Source: Mesorhizobium sp. WSM3859
GTDB taxonomy: Bacteria > Pseudomonadota > Alphaproteobacteria > Rhizobiales > Rhizobiaceae
Reading direction: 5' to 3'
Length of the DNA: 64,000 nucleotides
NCBI RefSeq assembly: GCF_002295065.1
Contig: NZ_NSGG01000002.1
Span: 1 to 64,000 of the forward strand
This document shows, piece after piece, positions 43,469-57,182 of this stretch (positions within the stretch are counted from its first letter, which is position 1; every line of letters begins with the position of its first letter). Made by a program: the position numbers and the translations under genes. The notes beneath the pieces were generated by a model. That model searched no databases. It saw nothing but the letters and a program-made list of their open reading frames with translations, and was not told the origin of the DNA.

Positions 43469-43995
43469 ACTGCGTTGCCACGAATAGCAAGGTACCGTCC
43501 ATCGTATAGGCGGCGCGTGTCCGGCCGATCAAGGCCCTGGACTTGACTTCTTTTGGGGGCAAATGCCGTCGCGAATTCCCGCGTCTTATGCAAGGACCGA
43601 GCGGCCCGGCCGAGGGGCTCGGGCATCCGACAGACATCGCTATATATTCATATCCACAACGCCCGATGACAGGATCGCGCCAGGCCGAGATGGCCGCGCC
43701 GCGGCGCTATATTCTGCGGGGCATATGTCTTTTGGTCTGGACCTGGGGCGGGATTGGTGGTTGTGTCGACGCTACAAGAAATTCAGGTGGCAGCCGGCCC
43801 GCGTCTTCCCCGTCAACAGGAGTGGCGCGGGCATTTGCCATTCGGGGTATGGGCGATATTGCCACTTGCGAATCGGAGCTGCCCCGCCGGCGCGGCGGCA
43901 ACGGCCGGCCATTAACCTTCCGCATCGGCACGGACCAAGGTCGGTGTCGCAATTGCATCCCCTCGCCTATACTGTCGCGAACGGGTGGGTGAACG
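43469..43995. other. Gene-free stretch upstream of the two-component system
   Basis: About 527 bases without a convincing gene. Open frames on both strands here have mixed codon use and no homology signals. AT-rich pockets (ATATATTCATATCC near 43640) may hold the promoter of the sensor kinase. Confidence 0.4.
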
Positions 43996-45399
43996 GTGCC
44001 GATGTTTGGGAGGTATCTGAAACGACTTGCACGAATCTGGAGCGGGCTCTCGCTTGCCTGGCAGTTCGTGATCGCGGGCGGCATTGGCCTTCTGGCAGTG
44101 ATGCTCGTGGTCGGGCTGTGGGTGACATCGCAGATCCGTGACGGCGTCCTGCACAATTCCGCCGCCACCACCGCGCTCTATGTCGACAGCGTGATCGCGC
44201 CGCTGCTGCCCGACATGCGCAAGAGCCAGGAGTTGGACGACACCGTCAAGCGGGCGCTGGACGAGACGCTCGGCCAGGGGGCGCTCGGGAAAAGGCTGGT
44301 CTCGTTCAAGCTATGGCGGCGCGACGGCACGATACTCTATTCGAAGGACGCCGACCTCATCGGCAGGCAGATCAAGCCCAACGCCAACCTCATCGCCGCC
44401 TTCGCCGGCAACGTCATGGTCAAATACAACACGCTCCAAGACGAGGAAGACGACAAGGAACGGTCGCTGGGGGTGCCGCTGCTCGAGATCTACAACCCGG
44501 TGCGCGAACCCTGGTCGGGCGAGGTCGTGGCCGTGACCGAATTCTACGAATTGTCCGGCGATTTCGAGGAATCGCTGCACTCGGCCCTGTTGTGGAGCTG
44601 GCTGGTGGTGGCGGGCGCCACGGCGGCGGCGCTTGCCCTGCTCTCGGGCATCGTTTTCCGCGGCAGCCGCACCATCGTCACGCAGCAGGCGGCACTCGAG
44701 GCCAAGGTCTCCGAATTGCAGGCGGCGCTGGCGCAGAACTCGTCGCTGCGCCAGCGCGTTCAGCGCGCCTCGCGCCGCGCCACCGCCATCAATGAGCGCT
44801 ATCTGAGACGAATCGGCGCCGACTTGCATGACGGGCCGGCGCAACTGGTGGCACTCGCCGCGCTCAGGATGGACAGCCCGGCGCTGGTCGATCCGGCCAC
44901 GTCGAGCACGCTGCGCGAAGCCGAGATCGCCGGTATCCACAAGACGCTCGGCGAAGCGATGCGCGAGATACGTGGCATCTGCAACGGGCTGGTGCTGCCG
45001 CAGGTCGAAACCCAGGCCATCGCCGACATCCTGCGGCTGGCGGTGGCCGAGCATGAGCGCCGAACCAGCACCAATGTGTTACTAACCCTGCCAGAGCGCT
45101 TGCCGGAACTCGGCACCTCGGAAAAGATCAGCATCTATCGCTTCGTGCAGGAAGGCCTGAACAACGCCTTCCGGCACGGCAAGGGCAAGGGCCAGCAGGT
45201 CAGGGCCACGACGAAAGGCGGTAAGCTTCTCGTCGAGGTCGTAGACACCGGCCCCGGCTTCGACCCGGCCCGAAGCGAGGGACTTGGGCTTGCGGGCCTG
45301 AGGGAACGTATCGAAAGCATAGGCGGTCAGTTCGAGACACTGACAGGGCCCGGAGGAACAAGACTGGTGATCACCCTGTCTGTCGAGGAGCAACCGTGA
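43996..45399 (+). CDS. NarL-type sensor histidine kinase
   Basis: This 467-residue kinase has two membrane helices (FVIAGGIGLLAVMLVVGLWV and SALLWSWLVVAGATAAALAL) around a periplasmic sensor domain of about 150 residues. A coiled segment precedes the HisKA_3 H-box RIGADLHDGPAQLVALAALR with the phosphorylated His, the N-box FVQEGLNNAFRHGKG and G-box VVDTGPGFDPARSEGLGLAG. The start used is GTG at 43996; an ATG two codons later is as likely. The stop overlaps the response-regulator start (GTGA). The signal sensed is unknown. Confidence 0.92.
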   Translation: MPMFGRYLKRLARIWSGLSLAWQFVIAGGIGLLAVMLVVGLWVTSQIRDGVLHNSAATTALYVDSVIAPLLPDMRKSQELDDTVKRALDETLGQGALGKRLVSFKLWRRDGTILYSKDADLIGRQIKPNANLIAAFAGNVMVKYNTLQDEEDDKERSLGVPLLEIYNPVREPWSGEVVAVTEFYELSGDFEESLHSALLWSWLVVAGATAAALALLSGIVFRGSRTIVTQQAALEAKVSELQAALAQNSSLRQRVQRASRRATAINERYLRRIGADLHDGPAQLVALAALRMDSPALVDPATSSTLREAEIAGIHKTLGEAMREIRGICNGLVLPQVETQAIADILRLAVAEHERRTSTNVLLTLPERLPELGTSEKISIYRFVQEGLNNAFRHGKGKGQQVRATTKGGKLLVEVVDTGPGFDPARSEGLGLAGLRERIESIGGQFETLTGPGGTRLVITLSVEEQP

Positions 45400-46040
45400 G
45401 CACATCCATCCGCATCGCAATAGTCGACGACCATCCCCTGTTTCGCGAGGGCGTGGCGCGCAGCCTCGGCGAGATAGGCGGCTTCGAACTCGTGGGCGAA
45501 GGCGCAAGCGCCGAGGACGCCGAAAGGCTGGTGCGCGCCAGCACGCCCGATATCCTTCTGCTCGACATCAGCATGCCGGGCGGCGGCCTCAGCGCGCTCG
45601 CCAGCATCCTTTCAGCGACGCCCGAGCAGAAGATCGTCATGCTGACGGTGTCGGAGACCAATGCCGACGTCGCCCAGGCGCTGAAGGCCGGCGCGCGCGG
45701 CTATGTGCTGAAAGGCGTCGGCTCCAAGGCGCTGGCCGAAATCCTGCGCGATGTCGCCAACGGCCAAAGCTATGTTTCGCCGAGCCTTTCGGCCAGGCTG
45801 CTTTCCGACCTTCTGCAGCCCACCGGCAGCAAGCCGGACCCGCTCGCCCAGCTCACCGGCCGCGAGGCCGAGATCCTGAAGCTGGTCGCGGAGGGGCTGA
45901 GCAACAAGGAAGTGGCCGCCCGGCTGTCATTGCAGGAAAAGACGGTCAAGCACCACATGACCAGGGTGCTCGCCAAGCTCAACGTGCGCAACCGCACCGA
46001 AGCGGCGCTGCTGATGCATGAGGCGAGGGAGAGGAATTAG
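45396..46040 (+). CDS. NarL/LuxR-type response regulator
   Basis: This 214-residue regulator has a receiver domain (VDDHPLFREG; phosphorylated Asp in ILLLDISMPGG; Lys in YVLKG) and a LuxR-type helix-turn-helix (LTGREAEILKLVAEGLSNKE, VKHHMTRVLAKLNVRNRTEA). The GTG start overlaps the kinase stop by four bases. Its stop codon (46038-46040) lies at the very edge of an octamer tandem array, so repeat changes could alter the end of the gene. Targets are unknown; the nearby Gly/Asn-rich exported genes are candidates. Confidence 0.93.
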   Translation: MSTSIRIAIVDDHPLFREGVARSLGEIGGFELVGEGASAEDAERLVRASTPDILLLDISMPGGGLSALASILSATPEQKIVMLTVSETNADVAQALKAGARGYVLKGVGSKALAEILRDVANGQSYVSPSLSARLLSDLLQPTGSKPDPLAQLTGREAEILKLVAEGLSNKEVAARLSLQEKTVKHHMTRVLAKLNVRNRTEAALLMHEARERN

Positions 46041-46188
46041 GGGAATTGGGGAATTGGGGAATTGGGGAACTGAAGAATTGAGGAATTGAGGAATTGAGGA
46101 ATTGAGGAATTGAGGAAAAGTTAGGCTAAGCTTCCTTTTTCTTCAATTCTTCAATTCTTCAATTCCTCGGTTCCCAGTTCCCCTCCCC
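46041..46188. repeat. Octamer tandem array with an inverted counterpart
   Basis: Ten consecutive octamers of type (G/A)GGAATTG fill 46041-46120, starting directly after the response-regulator stop. After a 20-base spacer, CTTCAATT is repeated three times (46141-46164) with three diverged units behind it. The two halves are complementary and can fold into one long hairpin. Confidence 0.9.
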
Positions 46189-46199
46189 GAAAACGCAAT

Positions 46200-46225
46200 C
46201 ACCCCCGCCTCAAGGGACGGGGGTG
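46200..46225. terminator. GC-rich hairpin downstream of the Gly/Asn-rich gene
   Basis: CACCCCCG (46200-46207) and CGGGGGTG (46218-46225) form a perfect 8-bp stem with a 10-base loop. It lies 44 bases beyond the minus-strand gene ending at 46269. There is no clear T run, so this is weak. Confidence 0.4.
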
Positions 46226-46268
46226 ACATGCGAGGGTGCCGGAAAAAGGGGGTAGCCTTTCCCGGCCA

Positions 46269-46808
46269 TCACAGGCTCAGCAGACGATTCAGATCCTCCT
46301 CCGTCGCCTGCCGCTCGATGATGGTGCGGCCTTGCGCGTCGGTCATCTCGAAACGGCCGTCCTGGACTTCCTCCTTCATGCCGTTGCGATGGACGACGGT
46401 GACCTTGTTGCCGTCGATCGAGATCGTGTCACCGGTTGCCGTGTTGGTATAGCTGCTCCTGCCGCCGGGATTGGCATTGCCCTTGCCGTTGTTGTTGCCA
46501 GGTCCCGCATTGGGGTTGCCCCCGCCGGCATTGCTGTTGTTGGAATTGCCACCGGCATTGCTGTTGCCGCTGTTACCGGAATTCGACCCCCCGGCCGAGC
46601 CCGAATTGCCGCCGTTTCCGGCACCGCCATTACCGCCGCTACCGCCATTGCCCCCGTTACCGCCATTGCCGCCGCTGCCGGCGTAGGCGGTTGACACGAG
46701 CTTTGTCACGTTGGCCGGCGCCAACAGGCAGGGCGCGACCACAACCGCCACCGCGACAGAGAGGCGCAGCGAGAGGTCGACTAGCCTTTTGCAGGCGGGT
46801 TGGCGCAT
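46269..46808 (-). CDS. Gly/Asn-rich exported protein, paralogue A
   Basis: From the ATG at 46808 (AAGGAAAAG upstream) this 179-residue protein has a signal peptide ending near VSTAYA, a long low-complexity Gly/Asn/Ser region (GGNGGNGGNGGSGGNGG type) and a conserved C-terminal domain. That domain reads DTISIDGNKVTVVHRNGMKE, EVQDGRFEMTDAQGRTIIER and ATEEDLNRLLSL. The same domain ends the gene at 47182-47736. The low-complexity part is expected to be disordered and extracellular or periplasmic. No family name is known to me. Confidence 0.85.
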   Translation of the reverse strand: MRQPACKRLVDLSLRLSVAVAVVVAPCLLAPANVTKLVSTAYAGSGGNGGNGGNGGSGGNGGAGNGGNSGSAGGSNSGNSGNSNAGGNSNNSNAGGGNPNAGPGNNNGKGNANPGGRSSYTNTATGDTISIDGNKVTVVHRNGMKEEVQDGRFEMTDAQGRTIIERQATEEDLNRLLSL

Positions 46809-47017
46809 TCTTTTCCTTCTTGCCGGTTCCACCTCGGTTTGCCGAAGTTCCGCTCACGGCGCAGGCGAAGCGGAACCGGTCTCTTGACGGAGGCTAGGAT
46901 CACATTCCGGCAGCGCGACGAAAGCGGCCCACGACCCATGCTCCGGCCGATCAGACCATTTCCGCCGCCATGAGTGACCAATGTCGCAACAGCAACCATC
47001 GCCACAGCTTGAAAAAA

Positions 47018-47043
47018 TTACCCCCGCACGGAGGCGGGGGTAA
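47018..47043 (-). terminator. Intrinsic terminator after paralogue B
   Basis: TTACCCCCGC (47018-47027) and GCGGGGGTAA (47034-47043) form a perfect 10-bp stem. On the minus strand it is followed by TTTTTT, so it ends transcripts of the gene at 47182-47736. The remaining 373-base gap 46809-47181 shows no gene. Confidence 0.8.
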
Positions 47044-47181
47044 GGTGAGTAGCCAGATTCCATCGCAAGACGATCAGGACCGCAGAGACGAAGCAAAAGG
47101 TGGCAACCTGATTTTGCAGCGCTGACCTTCGGTCCCTTAAGATCTAATCCGGATAAAACCTCGCTCCCACAAACTCTGCTT

Positions 47182-47736
47182 TCACAAACTGTTCAGGCGA
47201 TTGAGATCGGCCATGGTGGCCTTGCGGTCGATGATGGTGCGTCCGTATTTGTCTTCCATCCTGAACCGGCCCTTCTCGATCGTCTCCTTCATTCCATTGC
47301 GGTGCGTGACCTGGATGCTGCCGGCGGTGGCCTCGACCTTGTCGCCGGTCGCCGCGTTCACGTGGCTGTCGACATCGGCGGCGCTTGCCGCGCCGGCACT
47401 GTTGCTCGAGCTGTTGTTCCCGCTGCTGTTGCCGTTACTGTTCCCGCTGTTGCCGTTTCCGTTATTCCCGCCGCTATTGCCGTTTCCGTTCCCGTTGTTG
47501 CCGCCGTTTCCGCTATTCCCGCCGCTATTGCCGCCGCCGTTCCCGCCGCTGTTTCCACCACCGTTGCCGCCGCCGTTGCCGCCGCCATTGCCGCCGCCAT
47601 TGCCGCCTTTGGCATAGGCTTTGGTCACAACGACACCAACGACACCATCGACGGAGAGACTGAAAGGCGCGACAACGAGCGCCAACGCAGTCAGCGCTCG
47701 CAAGACCAGCCTGCAGCCCCTGCGCGATGCGCGCAT
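47182..47736 (-). CDS. Gly/Asn-rich exported protein, paralogue B
   Basis: From the ATG at 47736 (GGAGAG upstream) this 184-residue protein has a signal peptide (LVLRALTALALVVAPFSLSV, then VVTKAYA), a region of GGGN and GNNGNGN repeats of about 70 residues, and a C-terminal domain EATAGSIQVTHRNGMKETIE, KGRFRMEDKYGRTIIDRKAT, MADLNRLNSL. It matches paralogue A in order of parts. The pair may encode matrix or surface proteins, but this is inference. Each has its own terminator, so they are separate units. Confidence 0.85.
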   Translation of the reverse strand: MRASRRGCRLVLRALTALALVVAPFSLSVDGVVGVVVTKAYAKGGNGGGNGGGNGGGNGGGNSGGNGGGNSGGNSGNGGNNGNGNGNSGGNNGNGNSGNSNGNSSGNNSSSNSAGAASAADVDSHVNAATGDKVEATAGSIQVTHRNGMKETIEKGRFRMEDKYGRTIIDRKATMADLNRLNSL

Positions 47737-48019
47737 CCCGCTCTCCCCACGCCAGCCCTTCAGCCCGTCGGCCGAACTACCCCACCGGCAATGTCGCAGC
47801 ATAAGCATCCCCAATCAGCCCATGATTAGGAAGTGGCCCACGACCCTTGTCTTGTCCACTCGGACTTATCGCCATTTTCGATAGGACCTAAGTCTTATTT
47901 CAACCACCGGATGTGGTCGGATATCGCCGCCGCAGACATCGATTTCTCCAAGCCGGGCAGCGCTTTGGAGCGCGCCGCTCAGAAATGGATACGGGTGCGC
48001 GCGACCGGCTTGCAGAGAG

Positions 48020-48907
48020 TCAGGCCGGCGAAGGCGCCGGCCGCCGCGCCGCGACCGCCGTGCCGAAGGCGGCTGCAATGACGGCGGCGATGCCGGCGCA
48101 TTGCAACAGGTTGAGCTTCTCTGCCAAAAACAGGAAGCCGGTCAGCGCGGCGCCAGCCGGCTCCAGGCACACGAGCATGCCGTAGACCTTGGCCGGCATG
48201 CGGGCCAGCACCAGCATTTCCAGGTAGAAGGGCAGCGCGCTGGAGAACAGGCCGACCACGGCCGCGCCAGCCATGACGTGGGGGTCGGCGAGATGGGCTT
48301 GAGCCGCGCCGAAGCCGAAAGGCAGCGCCAGCACCGCGGCGATCGCCATGCCATAGGCGGAGGTGCGCGCGCCGAGTTCGGCGCCGGCCTTCTGCGCGAA
48401 GATGATGTAGAGCCCCCAGCAGACGCCGGCCGCCAGCGCCAGCGCCACGCCCAGCGGATCGAGCCCGCGGCTGATGCCGGCAAAGGGCGACAGCAGCGCG
48501 ATGCCGGCTATCGCCAGCGCCACCCAGACGAGGTCGAGCAGGCGCCTGGAGCCGAGGGTCGCGACGAACAGCGGCCCGGTGAATTCCAGCGCCACGCAGA
48601 TACCCAGCGGAATGCGCTGGAGCGCGGCATAGAACAACATGTTCATGGCGCAGACGGTGATGCCGTAGGCGGCGAGCCAGGGCAGGTTTTTCCGCGAGGG
48701 CAACACCTTCCATGGCCTCAGCACCGCGGCCAGCATCAGCGCGCCAATGGCAAGCCTGAGCATGGTCGTGCCCTCGGGCCCCAGCACAGGGAACAGGCTC
48801 TTGGCAAAGGCGGCGCCAACCTGCACCGACAGCATGGAGCCGAGCAGGCCGAGGATGGGCATGGCGCCGACATGCGCCTGCGGTTTTGCAATCGGCGTCG
48901 ACGTCAC
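48020..48907 (-). CDS. EamA-family (RhtA-like) transporter
   Basis: This 295-residue protein has ten hydrophobic helices in two EamA halves. The motif FAKSLFPVLGPEGTTMLRLA, the block LGICVALEFTGPLFVA and the block VYGMLVCLEPAGAALTGFLF are close to RhtA-type threonine/homoserine exporters. It is predicted to export amino acids or related metabolites through the inner membrane. The 283 bases between it and paralogue B show nothing certain. Confidence 0.9.
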   Translation of the reverse strand: MTSTPIAKPQAHVGAMPILGLLGSMLSVQVGAAFAKSLFPVLGPEGTTMLRLAIGALMLAAVLRPWKVLPSRKNLPWLAAYGITVCAMNMLFYAALQRIPLGICVALEFTGPLFVATLGSRRLLDLVWVALAIAGIALLSPFAGISRGLDPLGVALALAAGVCWGLYIIFAQKAGAELGARTSAYGMAIAAVLALPFGFGAAQAHLADPHVMAGAAVVGLFSSALPFYLEMLVLARMPAKVYGMLVCLEPAGAALTGFLFLAEKLNLLQCAGIAAVIAAAFGTAVAARRPAPSPA

Positions 48908-49505
48908 CTGCTCTCCGTTCCCCCTGCCCCGGTCGAGATCGGAGATAAGGCTTTTGCGGCAGCGCCGTCATGAGGCAGCGGGCGGCGGATGGTGGGACAA
49001 GGCGCCCCTTCCCCGGGCGGCAGGCCTGCTGCACCGCACAAGAACTTGAAATTCAAGATGTTTTCACAGACCTTCACTGTAGAATTTGCCACCCCGATCA
49101 AGCTTCTTTCCCAATATTTCCATCATACTCGCTTTAGTTGCGGGGATAATTCGTCAGCATCCCTGACGATTGATTACTTTCACACATCGGACCAATTGCC
49201 CATGACCTCATAGGACCATTGGATGGTCCGTACGGATATTTTCACAACACAACCATTTACGTCTCACAACGGCATCACATCTTGTTTCAGAGCCGTAAGC
49301 ATTTTGTGTTGCACCGCAACATCCGCCGCGACAATCGTGAAGCGGGGGCATGCCTGTTGGAGGATGCCATTATTGTGACTCGGATGGGCATTCCGCCGGC
49401 CGGCTGGAATTGCGCCCCCGGCCCGGACGGTGAGCGGTTGGCCCGCGGCGGCGAGATTCGCTCGCCCGTTGCCGCGTGGCGTGACCAAGCTTGCGAATAC
49501 CGCTG
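48908..49505. other. AT-rich regulatory region before the polysaccharide operon
   Basis: About 600 bases without a convincing gene. From 49050 to 49330 the sequence is clearly AT-richer than the surroundings. It includes a perfect palindrome at 49213-49229. It probably carries the promoters of the EamA gene and the acyltransferase operon. Confidence 0.6.
49213..49229. promoter_or_regulatory. Palindrome GGACCAT-TGG-ATGGTCC
   Basis: Perfect 7-bp arms with a 3-base centre in the AT-rich region, about 280 bases upstream of the acyltransferase start. It could be an operator; the binding protein is unknown. Confidence 0.5.
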
Positions 49506-50651
49506 ATGGCCAACGCGCGCGACATCCAACTCGACTCCTTGCGGGCAGTTGCCGTGACGCTGGTGCTCTACGCGCATTTCCTTGCGCCAAACGGTACCTC
49601 CTTCCTCGGCCATCTCGGGGTCAGGCTGTTCTTCGTTCTCTCCGGCTTCCTGATCACACGGCTTTTGCTGGACGCGCGTGATGCCGATGCATTCGCCACC
49701 GGACCGGCGCTGCGCTCCTTCTATGCGCGGCGCGTGATCCGTATCTTCCCGCCCTACTTCGCAGTGCTGGCGCTCGTCTGGTTCACCGATCTGGAACAGT
49801 CGAGGTCCTCGCTCGCCTGGCATGCGCTCTACCTCTCGAATTTCTGGTACGCGCTGCACAACGACTGGAACCCCTGGCTGCTCTGCCATTTCTGGAGCCT
49901 CAGCATCGAGGAGCAGTTTTATCTCGCCTGGCCGCTGATCGTGCTTCTGGCGCCGCGCCGGCGCATCGAGGCGATCGCAATCGGCGTCATCGCTTTTTCG
50001 CTCGCCTACCGGTTCTACTGGCCGATCGCCGCCAGCCCGGCGCTCGCCCGCGACCTGCTGCCGCCGGCCTCGATGGACGCGCTTGGCTGCGGCGCCCTGC
50101 TTGCCGTGCGCCGCGCCAGGGGCGCCGATGCGCCGCAATGGATGCGGCTCTGCTGGCCGGCCCTGGCGGTGGTGTTCCTGTTCGTGGTCCGATCCGATCC
50201 GGGGCCGGCGAATTCGGCCTGGGAGTGGCCGCGCTGGATGCTGGTGCAAGTGCTGCCGCTGGTGCCGCTGACGGTGATCGTCGCCGCCTGCTCGAACGGC
50301 CTCGGCGGCACGCTCGGCAGGCTGGCCGAACTGCCGCCGCTGCTCGGGCTCGGCCGCATCAGCTACGGCGTCTATCTCTACCATCCGATCCTACTTGCCT
50401 ATGCCGTCAAGGCGCAGCCATGGATCCCGGTCAACGTCTCGGAACAGGGGCCAGGCCGCTTCCTCGTCGCGGGCGCCGCGACGCTGGCCGTCGCCTCGCT
50501 TTCCTGGGTGTTTTTCGAGAAGCCGCTCAACGGTCTCAAGCGCTATTTTCCGTATGTCGCGCCCGCTCGTCCGCGCGGCGCAAGCGAGGCCCTCCGGTTC
50601 GGCGCCGCCCCGGCGCTCGATCTGCAGCCGACGGACCGGAGCCGACCATGA
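49506..50651 (+). CDS. Acyltransferase-3 family membrane protein
   Basis: This 381-residue protein starts MANARDIQLDSLRAVAVTLV, the usual LDSLRAVAV opening of acyltransferase-3 (OafA/NodX type). About ten membrane helices follow. The conserved block HFWSLSIEEQFYLAWPLIV and GRISYGVYLYHPILL are clear. It would add acyl groups (acetyl, succinyl) to a surface polysaccharide. The ATG at 49506 is used; a TTG five codons upstream is possible. The stop overlaps the next gene by ATGA. Confidence 0.9.
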   Translation: MANARDIQLDSLRAVAVTLVLYAHFLAPNGTSFLGHLGVRLFFVLSGFLITRLLLDARDADAFATGPALRSFYARRVIRIFPPYFAVLALVWFTDLEQSRSSLAWHALYLSNFWYALHNDWNPWLLCHFWSLSIEEQFYLAWPLIVLLAPRRRIEAIAIGVIAFSLAYRFYWPIAASPALARDLLPPASMDALGCGALLAVRRARGADAPQWMRLCWPALAVVFLFVVRSDPGPANSAWEWPRWMLVQVLPLVPLTVIVAACSNGLGGTLGRLAELPPLLGLGRISYGVYLYHPILLAYAVKAQPWIPVNVSEQGPGRFLVAGAATLAVASLSWVFFEKPLNGLKRYFPYVAPARPRGASEALRFGAAPALDLQPTDRSRP

Positions 50652-51757
50652 CCGCCGCGCCGCTCATCTCCGTGCTGTTGCCAGTCTACAATGCCGAGCC
50701 CTACGTGGCCGCCGCGATGCAGTCGATCCTGCGGCAGGACTACAACCGGCTCGAAATCATCGCCATCGATGACGGATCGACCGACAGGTCGCTTAAGATC
50801 CTCGAACGCTGCCGCCGGGACGACAGCCGCGTATCGATCATCTCGCGCGAAAACCGTGGCCTCGTTGCCAGCCTCAATGAAGGACTGGCGATCGCGCGGG
50901 GCGAACTCGTCGCGCGCATGGACGCCGACGACTTCGCCTATCCCTGGCGGCTGTCGCGCCAGGCGGCGCTGTTTGCCGCGCGGCCGGAGCTCGGCTTCTG
51001 CGGCGCGCTCGTCGATACGCTGCTGCACGGCCGCGTCCTTAAGGGGCGGCTCGACCCGGTGTTCCGTCTCAGCCTCCCGGAGCTGTCGAAATTCTTCACG
51101 ATCTTCCTGCACCCGACGGTGGTCTATAACCGCAAGGTCATCTCCGAGGCCGACCTCCACTATGACGGCGCTTATCGGCATGCCGAGGATTTCGACCTCT
51201 TCCGGCGGCTGGCCGACCGCTATCCGGCGGCGCTGATGCCGGAGAGCCTGCTGGTCTACCGCGTCCATCCCGGCAGCGTGACCAGCCGGCACGGCAAGGA
51301 GATGCGACGCACGCATCTCAAGATTGTCGGCGAGAACCTCGAGCGCCTGGGTTTGGCGCAGGACTGCGAGGACCTGCGCGCCATCGGCGATCGCGTCTGC
51401 CTCGACACCGTGCGCCGGGCGGCCGCTTTCATCCGGGCGCTTGAAGAGCGGATCTCGGCATTGCCCGACCCGACGCGGCCGAGCTTCGAGGCCGGCGCGC
51501 TCAACCTGTTCTATTTCCTCTACCAGCTCGTCAACGACGAGGAGCGGCCGGCGCTGTCGCATGAACTGCTGACGCTGACCGGGAAATGGAACGCGATCCG
51601 CCGCCGCGAGAAATACGCGCTCGGCCCCGGCGCCTGGGCGCCCTGGCTGAGCCAGGCCTCGATGTGGGCGGGCAAGCGCGCGGACTGGATGGCCTACCGC
51701 TTCAAATCCGCGCCGGCAGCGTCAGTGCTGGCGCCCTACAGGATGGGGGCGGCATGA
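50648..51757 (+). CDS. Glycosyltransferase family 2 (first)
   Basis: This 369-residue GT2 has the GT-A fold: ISVLLPVYNAEPYVAAAMQS, IIAIDDGSTDRSLK, the RMDADDFAYPWRLSRQ metal motif and HAEDFDLFRRLADRYP. It should add one sugar from a nucleotide sugar to a lipid-linked glycan at the cytoplasmic face. The C-terminal 150 residues are family-specific. It overlaps both neighbours by four bases. Confidence 0.92.
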   Translation: MTAAPLISVLLPVYNAEPYVAAAMQSILRQDYNRLEIIAIDDGSTDRSLKILERCRRDDSRVSIISRENRGLVASLNEGLAIARGELVARMDADDFAYPWRLSRQAALFAARPELGFCGALVDTLLHGRVLKGRLDPVFRLSLPELSKFFTIFLHPTVVYNRKVISEADLHYDGAYRHAEDFDLFRRLADRYPAALMPESLLVYRVHPGSVTSRHGKEMRRTHLKIVGENLERLGLAQDCEDLRAIGDRVCLDTVRRAAAFIRALEERISALPDPTRPSFEAGALNLFYFLYQLVNDEERPALSHELLTLTGKWNAIRRREKYALGPGAWAPWLSQASMWAGKRADWMAYRFKSAPAASVLAPYRMGAA

Positions 51758-52785
51758 ACGCCGAGCGCCATCCGTTGCTGCGGCACCTGCGCCCCGCACT
51801 GCCCGCTCCTCCGTGGCCCAGGCAGCGGCCACAGGTTTCCTTCATCGTCTGCACGCGCGACCGGCTGGACGTGCTCGAAGCCTGCATCGACTCGATCTGC
51901 GCCGCCTGCCGGGCGCATCCGGCCTTCGCGGCCGAGCTGGTGGTGGTCGACAACGGCTCGCGCGACGGCACGGCCAGTTATCTTTTGGCGGCCGCCGCGA
52001 CCTCGGACATCCCCCTGACCGCAATCTCGGAGCCCCGCCCCGGACTGGCGGCGGCGCGCAATGCGGGACTGGCGCAGGCGCGCGGCCGGGTGCTGGTGTT
52101 CGTTGACGACGACTGCAGGCTCGACCGCAACTATCTCGCCGACCTCGAGCGGCATTATGCGAGCGGCGAGAAGTGGCTGATCCGCGGCGGCCGCGTCGAG
52201 ATCGGCGACGCGCTCGACCTGCCCTTCACGATAAAGCGCTGCGACCAACGCGAAGTGCTGACGCATGCCGTCCACCCGGGCGGCTTCGTGCTAGGCTGCA
52301 ACATGACCATGCACCGCGACGTCGCCGCCCGCATCGGCCCCTTCGACGAGCGCTTCGGCGCCGGCGGCGCGCTGCGCTCGGCCGAGGACACGGACTATCT
52401 GGTGCGGGCGATGCTTGCCGGCATGGCGGTGGAATACGTGCCCGACATGACGATCTTCCACCATCACGGACGGCGCGACCGCATGGCGATCGACCGGCTG
52501 CACCGCGACTATCATTTCGGCAACGGCGCGCTCTGCCTGAAGCATTTTCGCCGCGCACCCTGGCTGCTTCGCCATTTCTACTGGGCGGCGCGGGCCGCCA
52601 TGCGCGAGCTCGCCGGCGGGCCGCGCTTCGACCACGATCTCAAACTGTCGCATTGGCCGATCGTCCTGATGAACCTTGCGGGCGCGGCGAAGTTCATGGC
52701 TCTCGTGCTTGTCAGGCGGCCGGGTCGGCAGCCGCAGTCGGGCAGCGAGACCATCGAGGCCAGGGCGGAGGCCGGCGCGCCGTGA
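51754..52785 (+). CDS. Glycosyltransferase family 2 (second)
   Basis: This 343-residue GT2 has VSFIVCTRDRLDVLEACIDS, LVVVDNGSRDGTASYLL, the DXD-like VFVDDDCRLDRNYLAD, and GAGGALRSAEDTDYLVRAML, a typical GT2 C-terminal ED block. A C-terminal stretch GAAKFMALVLVRR could touch the membrane. It overlaps the ABC exporter start (GTGA), so the four genes are translationally coupled. Confidence 0.92.
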   Translation: MNAERHPLLRHLRPALPAPPWPRQRPQVSFIVCTRDRLDVLEACIDSICAACRAHPAFAAELVVVDNGSRDGTASYLLAAAATSDIPLTAISEPRPGLAAARNAGLAQARGRVLVFVDDDCRLDRNYLADLERHYASGEKWLIRGGRVEIGDALDLPFTIKRCDQREVLTHAVHPGGFVLGCNMTMHRDVAARIGPFDERFGAGGALRSAEDTDYLVRAMLAGMAVEYVPDMTIFHHHGRRDRMAIDRLHRDYHFGNGALCLKHFRRAPWLLRHFYWAARAAMRELAGGPRFDHDLKLSHWPIVLMNLAGAAKFMALVLVRRPGRQPQSGSETIEARAEAGAP

Positions 52786-54554
52786 GCGGGCGCCCGACCC
52801 TGCCGATGCTGCGCCAGGCGCTCGGCCGCCGGCAGCTCGGCCTGTTGCCGATCGTCGTCGCGCTCGGGCTTGCGAGTGCAGCGCTCGAAGGTTTCGGCAT
52901 CGGACTGATCATCCCCCTGCTCGGCATCATCATGGGGCATGGCGAGGCGACCGGCATGGCCGGCCTGTCGGCCCTCCTGCAGAAGGTCGGTGCCGGGCTC
53001 GGCGAGCGCGAGCGGCTGATCGCCCTTGCAGTCGCGATCCTCGGCTCGATCCTCTTGAAGAACCTGCTCGGCTTCGCCAATTCGGTGCTCACCGCCCATA
53101 TCTACGGCAAGGCCAGCCAGGCGATCCGCGGCGCGCTCGCCGAGCGGCTGCTCAATATCGGCTATCCGTTCTTCCTGAAGGAGAGCCCCGGGCGGCTGCT
53201 CAACATCATCTCGAGCGAATCCTGGCGGGCGTCGGATGCCATCCAGGCGATGCTTGGCTCGATCGTCAGCGCCTCGGCGTCGCTCATCCTGCTCGGTTTC
53301 CTGCTGCTGCTCTCCTGGCAGATGACGCTGCTGGTGATGCTCGGGCTGGCGCTTGTCCAGGTTGCGCATATGGCGCTGTCGGCGCATCTGAGAAACCCGA
53401 GCCGAAGCGTTGCCTCGCGCAACAGTGCGCTCGCCTCGCGGATGCTGCATCTTGTGCATGCCGGCCGGCTGATCCGCATCTTCGGCCAGGAAGCGCGCGA
53501 GAAGGCGGCGTTCGGGGCGGCATCGGACGGCGTGCGCCGGGCGGCCTTCCAGCTTTCCAACCGCCAGGGCGCGCTGGGCCCGGTGACCGAAGTGCTGCAC
53601 GCCATGTTGTTCCTGGCGGTGGTGATCGGCGCATGGCTGGCGGGCCTGAGCTTCCCGCTGGTCGCCGCCTTCCTCATCCTGCTCTACCGGCTGCAGCCGC
53701 ATGTCAGAGCGCTGCAGATGACATGGAGCCAGTTGCAGGGGCTTTCAGGTTCGCTGGAAGAGGTGACCTGGCTGCTCGACCCCAAGGGCAAGCCGGCACC
53801 GCCGCAAGGCAGCCGGCCATTCGCGACTTTGAGCGAAAAAATCGCCTTTGAGGGCGTGAGCTTCAGCTACGCCAATGAGGAGCAGCGCGCGGCGGTGCTG
53901 CATGCCGTGAGCTTCGACATAAGAAGCGGTCGCTCGACGGCGCTGATTGGCCGCTCCGGCGCCGGCAAGACGACCATCGTCAACCTGCTCTGCCGCTTCG
54001 TCGAGCCGGACGGCGGCCGCATCCTCGTCGACGGCGCGCCGCTCGGCGAGATCGATCCGGTCGCATGGCGGGCGCATATCGCCCTGGCCAGCCAGGAACT
54101 GGAGCTGGTGGACGGCACCATCCTCGACAACATCACCTACGGCAAGGACACGGCGAGCATGGAAGAGGCGCGCCGCGCGGCCGCGCTCGCCGAGGCGCAT
54201 GAATTCATCGAACGCCTGCCGCAGGGCTACCAGACGGTCGTCGGCTATCGCGGCGTCAATTTGTCGGCCGGCCAGAGGCAGCGCATCGCGCTCGCCCGCG
54301 CGCTTGTGCGCGATCCGGATATCCTGATCCTCGACGAGGCCACCAACGCGGTGGACGGGCTTTCGGAAGCGGCGATCGTGGAAACGCTGAAGTCGCGCGC
54401 CGGCCGCCGCACAACGATCGTCATCAGCCACCACCACTCGACGATCTCGTTCTGCGACGATCTGGTGATTTTGGAGCATGGACGGGTGAGGAAGCAGGCG
54501 CCGTTCGCGGAACTGGCGGCGCGCAGCATGGATGAATTGTATCAGCCGGAGTGA
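52782..54554 (+). CDS. ABC exporter with fused membrane and ATPase domains (MsbA-like)
   Basis: This 590-residue half-transporter has about six membrane helices (residues about 20-310) and an ATPase domain with Walker A GRSGAGKTT, the signature LSAGQRQR, Walker B ILILDEAT and the H-loop ISHHHSTI. It probably exports the lipid-linked glycan made by the two GT2 and modified by the acyltransferase. The GTG start overlaps the GT2 stop. Beyond its 3' end lie three MITE-like repeats. Confidence 0.94.
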   Translation: MSGRPTLPMLRQALGRRQLGLLPIVVALGLASAALEGFGIGLIIPLLGIIMGHGEATGMAGLSALLQKVGAGLGERERLIALAVAILGSILLKNLLGFANSVLTAHIYGKASQAIRGALAERLLNIGYPFFLKESPGRLLNIISSESWRASDAIQAMLGSIVSASASLILLGFLLLLSWQMTLLVMLGLALVQVAHMALSAHLRNPSRSVASRNSALASRMLHLVHAGRLIRIFGQEAREKAAFGAASDGVRRAAFQLSNRQGALGPVTEVLHAMLFLAVVIGAWLAGLSFPLVAAFLILLYRLQPHVRALQMTWSQLQGLSGSLEEVTWLLDPKGKPAPPQGSRPFATLSEKIAFEGVSFSYANEEQRAAVLHAVSFDIRSGRSTALIGRSGAGKTTIVNLLCRFVEPDGGRILVDGAPLGEIDPVAWRAHIALASQELELVDGTILDNITYGKDTASMEEARRAAALAEAHEFIERLPQGYQTVVGYRGVNLSAGQRQRIALARALVRDPDILILDEATNAVDGLSEAAIVETLKSRAGRRTTIVISHHHSTISFCDDLVILEHGRVRKQAPFAELAARSMDELYQPE

Positions 54555-55110: not shown

Positions 55111-55383
55111 TCACCCCGCCATGGCCAGCGGGGCGGCGCTTTTGTTGGGGATCTGGATGTCGATCTCCAGCGTCGACATGGTGGCGCCGCGGTCCATCGA
55201 GACCTGGAGGTAGTCCTGGTCGATCTGCACATGCTTGGCAATGACCGCCATGATCTCCTCGCGCAGGATGGAAACGAGGTCCGGCTGGCCGCGGCTCTGG
55301 CGCTCATAGGCGAGCAGCAGCTGCAGCCGCTCGCGCGCCACCGGCGCGCTGGTGCGCCGCTTGAAGAGGTCGAGGATGCTCAT
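55111..55383 (-). CDS. minE: Cell division topological factor MinE
   Basis: This 90-residue protein has the MinD-binding N-terminal helix region and the dimerising C-terminal domain: [40 protein letters not shown] and LEIDIQIPN. It stimulates MinD ATPase and limits MinC to the poles. The start overlaps the minD stop by four bases. Length is normal. Confidence 0.96.
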
Positions 55384-56195
55384 GCCGCCCTCCTTCCGAG
55401 AAGCCGGTCGAGGAAGCCCTTGCGTTCGAAGGGGACGACCACCGGCAGGTCTTCGCCTTCCAGGCGTCTTGCCGCTTCGAGGTAAGCCTTTGCGGCACCA
55501 TTGAGCGGTTCCGAGAGCGTGACGGGCGAGCCGAGGTTGGAGGCGCGCAGCACGTCCTGGCTTTCCGGGATGATGCCGAGCAGCGGCGTGGAGAGTATCT
55601 CCAGCACATCGTCGATCGACAGCATCTCGCCGCGCGAGGCGCGGGCCGCGTCGTAGCGGGTAACCAGCACGTGTTTTTGCACCAGCTCGCCCTGCTCGGC
55701 CTTCATGGTGCGGGCGTCGAGCAGGCCGATGATACGGTCGGAGTCGCGCACCGACGACACTTCCGGATTGGTGACGATGACCGCCTCGTCGGCGAAGCGC
55801 ATGGCGAGCTGGGCGCCGCGCTCGATGCCGGCCGGGCTGTCGCAGAAGACATAGTCGAACACCGAGCGCAGCCTGGCGATGACTTCGGCCACGCCCTCTT
55901 CGGTCAGCGCGTCCTTGTCCCGGGTCTGCGAAGCGGGCAGCAGATAGAGCGTCTCCAGCCGCTTGTCGCGGATCAGCGCCTGCGACAGCTTCGCCGTGCC
56001 CTGGATGACGTTGACGAGGTCGAACACCACGCGGCGCTCGGCGCCCATGATGAGGTCGAGATTGCGCAGGCCGACGTCGAAATCGACCAGCGCCACCTTC
56101 TTGCCGGTCTTGGCCACGGCGGCGCCGAGCGCGGCCGTCGAGGTCGTCTTGCCGACGCCCCCCTTGCCCGATGTGACCACGACTACCTTGCCCAT
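55380..56195 (-). CDS. minD: Septum-site ATPase MinD
   Basis: This 271-residue protein starts [20 protein letters not shown] with the deviant Walker [24 protein letters not shown] and the [10 protein letters not shown] block follow, and the C-terminal amphipathic membrane-targeting helix is [14 protein letters not shown]. It binds membrane as an ATP dimer and recruits MinC. It is the middle gene of minCDE on the minus strand; 96 bases separate it from minC. Confidence 0.97.
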
Positions 56196-56291
56196 AAATT
56201 CAGCCTCCGTTGGCGATTCTTATTCATGACCGTGCCGGGCACGGCGGACTCGTTAACAACCTTGGCACGCGAAACCGGTCCGAAGCTTGCC

Positions 56292-57182
56292 TCAGCCGAG
56301 CGGCACCACGCACAGTGCATCATTGTCGAGGAAGGCCTGCACGGCCTTGCCGCGCGAGGTGCCTTCCATCTCCTCGGCCGTGGTGTACCAGCCGTCGACG
56401 GCGAGCAGCTCGGCCTCGTTCTTGCGGCAGAAGATGCGCGCCGAAACATTGCCTTCCGAGCCGGCGATCGCGCGGCCGCGCAGCGTGCCGTAGACATGGA
56501 TCGAGCCGCCGGCGACGATCTCCGAGCCGGACGCGACCGAGCCCAGCACGATGACATCGCCATGCGGATGGAACACCGACTGCCCGGAGCGGATCGGCGC
56601 CTTGATCATCAGCGTGCCGGCCGAAGGCTGCGCCGGCTCGGCGCCCGCGCTTGCGGCCTGCGCCGGTTCGATCCTGACCGCTTCGAGCCTTGCCAGCTCG
56701 GGGTCCACCGGCTCGTCGGCGGAGGTCGCGATCTGCGGAGCCTCGGCCGGGGCCGCCTCCGCGACCAGCTGGATCTCTCCAGCGGCCTGGGCCTGCTCCC
56801 CGGCGGCGGCTTCGAGCTCCTCGGCCCGCGCCTTGCGCGCGGCGCGGCCCAGCAGCCCCTCAGCGGTCGCCTCCTTGGCGCCGGCAAGCAGCGGCGGCAG
56901 TTCAGGCCCCAGCTCGGCGCCTTCCAGTTCGATGGCATAGACGCGGATGCCGCGCGAGCCGAGCACGCCGACCAGCGCCCCGATCTCCTCCGGCCCCGGC
57001 TGCAGGACGTTCAGGTCCAGCACCACCGGGCGCCCGTTGAAATAGCCCGGCGAGTTGGCGATCCAGCGGTCCAGCCCCTCCAGCCAGTCGGCGATCGGCG
57101 CCTCCGGCGTCAGCGTGAAAGCGACGAAGGAACGGGCGCGGAAGCGGATGGATTTGTTCTGCAAAGGGGCGGCGAAGGTCAC
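56292..57182 (-). CDS. minC: Septum formation inhibitor MinC
   Basis: This 296-residue protein has the N-terminal FtsZ-inhibiting domain (FRARSFVAFTLTPEAPIADW) and a long Ala/Glu/Pro linker at about 115-190. The C-terminal beta-helix domain binds MinD (RSGQSVFHPHGDVIVLGSVA, GGSIHVYGTLRGRAIAG). The start is GTG at 57182 and no strong ribosome site is visible, so a slightly different start is possible. The linker is longer than in enteric MinC. Confidence 0.95.
   Translation of the reverse strand: MTFAAPLQNKSIRFRARSFVAFTLTPEAPIADWLEGLDRWIANSPGYFNGRPVVLDLNVLQPGPEEIGALVGVLGSRGIRVYAIELEGAELGPELPPLLAGAKEATAEGLLGRAARKARAEELEAAAGEQAQAAGEIQLVAEAAPAEAPQIATSADEPVDPELARLEAVRIEPAQAASAGAEPAQPSAGTLMIKAPIRSGQSVFHPHGDVIVLGSVASGSEIVAGGSIHVYGTLRGRAIAGSEGNVSARIFCRKNEAELLAVDGWYTTAEEMEGTSRGKAVQAFLDNDALCVVPLG

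Follow-up and report, generated by a model that had tools for sequence, protein, structure and literature searches.

Genes for two exported Gly/Asn-rich proteins

The window, that is the whole stretch of 64,000 nucleotides of the soil rhizobium Mesorhizobium sp. WSM3859 that was analysed, contains two genes encoding exported Gly/Asn-rich proteins. The name GNP is used here for both proteins and for their relatives. The features identified at these genes were:

46198..46227, minus strand: terminator-like hairpin 3' of copy 1 (hairpin scan)
46269..46808, minus strand: GNP copy 1, exported Gly/Asn-rich protein, reading frame open to a GTG at 46832
46272..46454, minus strand: C-terminal domain of copy 1, 61 aa (AlphaFold2 pLDDT 94.6, pTM 0.76)
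47018..47043, minus strand: terminator-like hairpin with a T tail, 3' of copy 2 and ahead of copy 1 (hairpin scan)
47182..47736, minus strand: GNP copy 2, exported Gly/Asn-rich protein, reading frame open to a TTG at 47814
47185..47367, minus strand: C-terminal domain of copy 2, 56% identity to copy 1 over 61 aa

The reading frame of copy 1 (46269-46832) gives 187 aa from the GTG and that of copy 2 (47182-47814) gives 210 aa from the TTG; the ATG codons at 46808 and at 47736, the latter being the end coordinate of the original prediction, are the likelier starts. Both frames lie on the minus strand and, as that prediction held, encode exported, Gly/Asn-rich proteins, each with a hydrophobic N-terminal stretch up to AYA, then a Gly/Asn/Ser stretch and finally an end common to both. 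The shared C-terminal domain, which had been noticed from the sequence alone, was borne out by BLASTP with 36/70 identities over the final 70 residues (E 1e-21), the low-complexity part not being involved. Copies 1 and 2 were the only carriers of this domain in the window's own genome, where two further rows had E values of 0.64 and 4.2. Since a terminator-like hairpin of its own follows each gene, the two copies look like two transcription units; the scan found nine such hairpins where 4.3 were expected.

Range, composition and database status of the GNP family

In a sample of 199 genomes of the taxonomic family, a 61-residue query detected the domain in 48 genomes and in 34 of 109 genera; one of these 48, G111, is a borderline case (E 0.0095) and probably due to chance. 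Alignment of 25 domains gave the consensus VxHxNGxxExIxxGRYxMxDAxGRTIIxRxATxADxxRL. When 148 distinct relatives were compared, the domain lay at most six residues from the protein end in 147, and a hydrophobic N-terminal stretch was present in 138, preceded by a twin-arginine-like motif in 13; a lipobox-like motif was found in one. The middle part is highly variable among relatives, with mean contents of 40% Gly, 21% Asn and 15% Ser over the same set. Two or three copies per genome were common in the 119 genomes of the genus.

Outside the taxonomic family the domain is sparse. In the order-level sample 13 of 297 genomes matched, 10 of them from the window's own family, by a profile search that was insensitive because at most 21 candidates were scored per genome. 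The class-level and phylum-level surveys used a single 49-aa query, which misses divergent relatives; the former matched 1 of 385 genomes, the window's own, and the latter 13 of 398 (seven of the same genus, five of the same family and one of the same class). By tblastn, 163 plasmid records matched, mostly from Sinorhizobium, Rhizobium and Agrobacterium, and the module of S. meliloti is located on the pSymB megaplasmid. We take this copy to be SMb21518-21521, a guess made from the neighbouring min genes; these gene names were absent from the texts searched.

The domain had also been called apparently undescribed, and the profile searches agree with this. Neither window GNP reached a Pfam cut-off (best rows Big_3, 14.2 of 21.2 bits, and ULD_2, 12.3 of 24.5) or an NCBIfam cut-off (TafF, 19.2 of 420 bits, on the low-complexity part), and the 25 C-terminal domains, scanned singly, gave no family at cut-off, all listed families having E values of 0.004 or worse. 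A profile search of the PDB gave nothing above cut-off, the weak match being to CPAP (E 0.0054), and Rfam had 0 matches in 43500-48300. No paper on the GNP family or the module was found in the literature searched, most subscription journals and supplements lying outside its scope. The databases and papers searched contain no description of the GNP family or of its putative operator, presented below, and the type of circuit is a familiar one. Disordered exported proteins are usually passed over in annotation, and the constant end domain gives a handle by which this family can be named and traced.

Predicted fold of the C-terminal domain

AlphaFold2, supplied with 53 aligned sequences (the window's and Mesorhizobium-type ones), modelled the domain confidently as a meander of five antiparallel strands with an end helix. 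A Foldseek search with this model gave no match at E 0.001 or better; the best solved structures were polo-box 3 of PLK4 (E 0.011) and the TCP10 domain of CPAP (E 0.034). The VIA Z score was 7.1 both for the best polo box and for the best G-box, and values below 8 may reflect a common arrangement according to the tool's own note. The possible likeness is of fold only, polo-box 3 having the antiparallel meander with end helix and the CPAP/TCP10 G-box the bare meander; both belong to eukaryotic intracellular proteins that are not known to share a function with GNP. We read the domain as a small independent binding module without inferring homology.

C-terminal sorting signals such as PEP-CTERM, GlyGly-CTERM and LPXTG consist of a motif, a transmembrane helix and a basic tail at the C-terminus. 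GNP instead end in the modelled folded domain with its 8-residue helix. The earlier interpretation of these proteins stands as to export, Gly/Asn-rich composition and a C-terminal domain without family match; the matrix or surface role that it proposed, with the end as an anchor or export handle, is a possibility. The end is predicted to be a folded meander with a short helix and not a PEP-CTERM-like or transmembrane tail.

The adjoining sensor kinase and response regulator

Convergent to the GNP genes lies a two-component system with the following features:

43996..45399, plus strand: sensor histidine kinase (HK), HATPase_c above cut-off and HisKA_3 just below
about 44113-44640, plus strand: predicted extracytoplasmic sensor of HK (sensor model pLDDT 84.8)
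45396..46040, plus strand: NarL/FixJ-type response regulator (RR) with recognition helix EKTVKHHMT (Response_reg 75 bits, GerE 71 bits)

The NarL-type assignment made beforehand was correct: the Pfam scan found in RR a receiver domain and a GerE-type helix-turn-helix, both above cut-off, and the recognition helix is conserved among the linked regulators. In the window's HK, HATPase_c scored 39.7 bits against a cut-off of 26.4 and HisKA_3 21.8 against 24.0; the S. meliloti relative reached 27.8 bits for HisKA_3. There was no GAF row for this kinase in the Pfam scan. Its sensor model resembles the extracytoplasmic PAS/Cache sensors of WalK, CitA, DcuS and DctB (best E 4e-7), and from this predicted fold a periplasmic ligand is likely.

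Linkage and co-occurrence of GNP with the two-component system

The original prediction went no further than adjacency between GNP and this pair, and the comparison of loci extended it to a genetic tie, in order and in co-occurrence, and to common promoter boxes. The convergent order HK, RR and then GNP, always tail to tail, was observed in 69 of 73 named loci, taken from the 80 best among 253 confirmed stretches. These 73 loci are not independent because nearly all are from Mesorhizobium. L116 and L249 denote one contig, and L115 and L145 appear a second time as L036 and L037. In 20 loci from different genomes, the window included, the HK family lay beside GNP in 18; RR was recovered by clustering in 15, and tblastn added three that clustering had missed (L039, L040 and L047). 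In the same 20 loci no transport or processing gene recurred beside GNP; only HK and RR did. Both partners kept the same arrangement in all four loci from other families (L240-L243; genomes G475, G471, G315 and G1053), where HK identity fell to as low as 40%.

Presence and absence follow the same rule. The module is widespread in the genus: both partners occurred in 101 of the 119 genomes sampled and neither in 16, two had only a distant HK (34-35% identity), and GNP alone was found in none. In the sample of 199 genomes of the family, HK was present in 47 of 48 GNP genomes, and 13 HK genomes had no detected GNP; in one of these, G184, a diverged GNP is in place (profile E 2.8e-8). No GNP was found with the related kinases of G1209 and G1225, and none adjoins the more distant HK paralogues (L150, L152-L155). 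On an HK tree of 55 rows, the label "has GNP" required 2 changes compared with 16.0 in shuffles, and 0 of 500 shuffles were as low.

GNP copies apart from any HK were those of L116, L125, L134 and L138, which are the four exceptions among the 73 named loci, and those of L051 and L052. The strains of L116, L134 and L138 also carry a linked copy (L120, L130 and L140), as do the genomes of L051 and L052 (L244 and L246); for L125 there was no linked copy among the matches listed. The two-component system is our main finding: the module is inherited as one package, chiefly in Rhizobiaceae and Mesorhizobium-type bacteria.

Promoter boxes and convergent-gap repeats

Two conserved boxes, A and C, were recognized upstream of the genes of the module. 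Their positions in the window are:

43932..43943, plus strand: box A upstream of the HK gene, GGACCAAGGTCG (1 mismatch to GGACYWWRGTCC; comparative support)
46920..46937, minus strand: box C of copy 1, GGGTCGTGGGCCGCTTTC (promoter comparison, genome scan)
46975..46986, minus strand: degenerate box A upstream of copy 1, CGACATTGGTCA (more than 1 mismatch; position conserved in the copy-1 promoter alignment)
47829..47846, minus strand: box C of copy 2, GGGTCGTGGGCCACTTCC (promoter comparison, genome scan)
47884..47895, minus strand: box A upstream of copy 2, AGACTTAGGTCC (1 mismatch)

Box A is the palindrome GGACYWWRGTCC, obtained by a de novo motif search of 34 GNP upstream regions and typically placed about 130-150 bp ahead of the GNP start. 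In 26 representative loci, L115 and L145 being left out, it was present with at most one mismatch in 16 of 27 GNP and 7 of 22 HK upstream windows and missing from the other 11 and 15, whereas the reversed control gave 0/27 and 0/22 and the control with swapped half-sites 0/27 and 2/22. Its density was 1.85 per kb upstream of GNP and 1.59 upstream of HK versus 0.057 elsewhere. Discovery relied on GNP upstreams alone, with HK upstreams and outgroup loci unused, and the GNP share of this enrichment is partly circular. In the outgroup loci box A was found before HK in 4/4 and before GNP in 2/4. It also precedes all four unused GNP copies away from HK (those of L116, L125, L134 and L138), as well as the kinase-free copies of L051 and L052, which belonged to the discovery set; it was not found upstream of HK in L244, L246, L247 and L248. 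RR very probably switches on the adjoining GNP genes.

Within the window alone, box A sites with at most two mismatches were no more frequent than by chance (7 versus 13.7 expected). Perfect boxes had no genome-wide excess (3 sites in G000 versus 13 for the reversed control), and box A was for this reason rejected as a genome-wide regulon finder. The general stress (EcfG/RpoE2) promoter, whose consensus is GGAAC-N15-18-[CG]GTT, was likewise rejected, as this pattern occurred in 1 of the 34 upstream regions.

Box C, common to both GNP promoters of the window, is GGGTCGTGGGCCRCTTYC. Allowing at most two mismatches, the 6.6 Mb genome contains exactly two sites, which are the two GNP promoters; at up to three mismatches the 40 sites are background, the reversed pattern giving 46. 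Both copies are preceded by the box in about 32 of the 43 named loci with two copies; the automated count was 31, and 32 is the better figure given that L081 is a truncated-contig artefact and the boxes of L089 and L094 lie farther out. With at most one mismatch it appeared in 1 of 30 single-copy named loci, so that box C, unlike box A, is a feature of a clade. A second operator, a promoter element or a part of the leader are the candidates for what this sequence may represent.

Between RR and copy 1 there is also an 8-bp tandem array of GAGGAATT (10.8 copies, 46031-46117), and beyond it an array of TTCTTCAA that is partly complementary (3.4 copies, 46139-46165). Together (46031-46165) these arrays could fold as a long hairpin in the convergent gap.

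Comparison with known systems

The module shares with DosR (DevR) a NarL/FixJ-type regulator, paired with a kinase that may be of the HisKA_3 type as in DosR. In addition, box A closely resembles the DosR box of M. tuberculosis (PMC2275270, PMC5999986), whose core palindrome is GGACTWWAGTCC (PMC2275270), and a palindrome like it, as regards the core, appears at the module's own and presumed target promoters. Owing to this resemblance of the putative operator to the mycobacterial box, the regulon becomes directly searchable and testable. The core DNA-binding residues of DosR are K179, K182 and N183 (PMC5999986), and the third of them is apparently replaced by His in the module's RR. The target of the module is one exported protein, compared with a regulon of about 50 genes that is reported for DosR. 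The kinases differ as well, since that of the module has a predicted extracytoplasmic PAS/Cache-like sensor and is not of the cytoplasmic haem-sensing GAF type. DosS and DosT are cytoplasmic haem sensors. The two lysines of DosR are apparently kept in the E-K-T-V-K helix of RR, judging by our own alignment to DosR.

With CpxA-CpxR-CpxP the module would have in common a two-component pair, a linked small exported protein probably under control of the regulator, and possibly feedback. It differs in that GNP gave no row for the LTXXQ/CpxP family in the Pfam or NCBIfam scans, in that RR is NarL-type rather than OmpR-type, and in that GNP are mostly disordered. The CpxP-like operon SMb21560-21562, treated in PMC2912261, is a different system.

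Proposed function of the module

We favour, with moderate confidence, a two-component module that is self-contained and regulates itself, with an exported protein of the envelope or surface as its conserved output. The extracytoplasmic PAS/Cache-like domain of HK would, to judge from its fold, read a periplasmic condition, and HK would then phosphorylate the NarL-type RR, a step established for these families. On strong sequence grounds, RR would bind GGACYWWRGTCC ahead of its own operon and ahead of one or more GNP genes, activating both; in the window's clade, box C would complete the GNP promoters. The N-terminal signal peptide would direct GNP to export. The last step is the least certain: the Gly/Asn/Ser-rich part may remain disordered and serve as hydrated filler, either periplasmic or surface-located, and the 60-residue meander-plus-helix domain may tether GNP to a partner in the envelope. 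Sequence supports the circuit and its regulation well, and the physical role of the protein is what we infer; a filler held by its end domain would agree with the composition, with the constant placement at the C-terminus and with how often the gene is duplicated. Anonymous low-complexity "hypothetical proteins" would in this manner become part of a defined and testable circuit of a sensor, a regulator, an operator and one exported output.

Less probably, GNP could instead be a secreted matrix or biofilm protein attached to exopolysaccharide, with the C-terminal domain as a polysaccharide or outer-membrane anchor. Acyltransferase, glycosyltransferase and ABC exporter genes come next in the window, the module of Ensifer canadensis lies near genes for a polysaccharide pyruvyl transferase and a UTP-glucose-1-phosphate uridylyltransferase, and that of Phyllobacterium near glycosyltransferase genes. 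However, such neighbours are inconstant, as only 23 of the 101 loci examined, all of Mesorhizobium, contained relatives of the window acyltransferase, and most other loci viewed differ.

It is rather unlikely that GNP acts in the periplasm as partner to its own HK, by analogy with CpxP and CpxA, whose C-terminal domain would bind the sensor to damp or trigger it while the disordered part set its reach or responded to the envelope. The presence, absence and order of GNP track HK almost without exception, the sensor is predicted to be on the periplasmic side, and the probable control of GNP by RR would close a feedback loop. Against this, distances between C-terminal domains track the HK core no less closely than the sensor (39 loci: rank correlation 0.724 with the core and 0.709 with the sensor; partial correlation 0.345 for the core when the sensor is controlled for and 0.283 in the converse case), so that there is no special coupling between sensor and GNP, and co-evolution of the two as receptor and ligand was rejected. 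The GNP copies away from any HK listed above (L116, L125, L134, L138, L051 and L052) and the two or three copies common per genome also argue against a dedicated partner.

A more speculative and distinctly improbable extension is a three-gene envelope device, in which GNP would serve its own HK in two ways, as dedicated output and as feedback signal in the periplasm, with the polo-box-like C-terminal domain as the receptor-binding end and the Gly/Asn-rich part as a gauge of envelope space or hydration; if true, the cell would be measuring the filler that it secretes. Finally, it is very doubtful that the C-terminal domain serves as a tag for secretion or sorting, with the Gly/Asn-rich part as mere cargo, for although its position at the end is almost invariant (147/148) and the middle part widely variable, the domain is modelled as folded without a membrane helix or basic tail, no common transport or processing gene recurs beside GNP as HK and RR do, and none of the matches viewed carried it on unrelated cargo, a low-complexity middle being present in all of them.

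Gene neighbourhood

Returning to the module that we favour, its surroundings vary. Other neighbours were found at the GNP loci of Nitratireductor, S. meliloti, Agrobacterium, Neorhizobium and Shinella, and membership of an exopolysaccharide cluster was rejected as an explanation on account of this variation between loci. Three paralogous HK-RR pairs without GNP (L150, L152 and L153) adjoin genes for extracellular solute-binding proteins, which may be akin to ferric-ion binders; one of these proteins, scanned with NCBIfam, gave only sub-threshold aminoethylphosphonate models. In plasmids of Sinorhizobium, Ensifer, Agrobacterium and Rhizobium the HK gene has on its upstream side a divergent gene encoding about 215-250 aa (L214 12463-13218, L146 7463-8152, L215 9467-10111, L217 8115-8813 and L250 7935-8621); in L217, where HK is not listed, it precedes RR. 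Four of these genes were scanned and gave no Pfam match above cut-off.

The division-site genes minD and minC (TIGR01968, TIGR01222) are located at 55380-57182, some 8 kb from the window GNPs, and minCDE directly adjoins GNP on the S. meliloti pSymB (L214 7356-9278); relatives of the window MinD were present in 11 of 101 loci examined, and the division-site genes and the GNP module form an old neighbourhood. Genes for an acyltransferase-3, a family 2 glycosyltransferase and an ABC exporter (49491-54554) stand between the GNP/EamA block and minCD. Since the min genes follow closely in some Mesorhizobium loci, in place of these genes, the 49491-54554 segment looks like a strain-variable cassette. 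Additionally, genes of the DUF1236 and BA14K types are repeatedly present in the vicinity of GNP (L039 8964-9722, L043 7122-7472, L044 6814-7503, L219 and L250).
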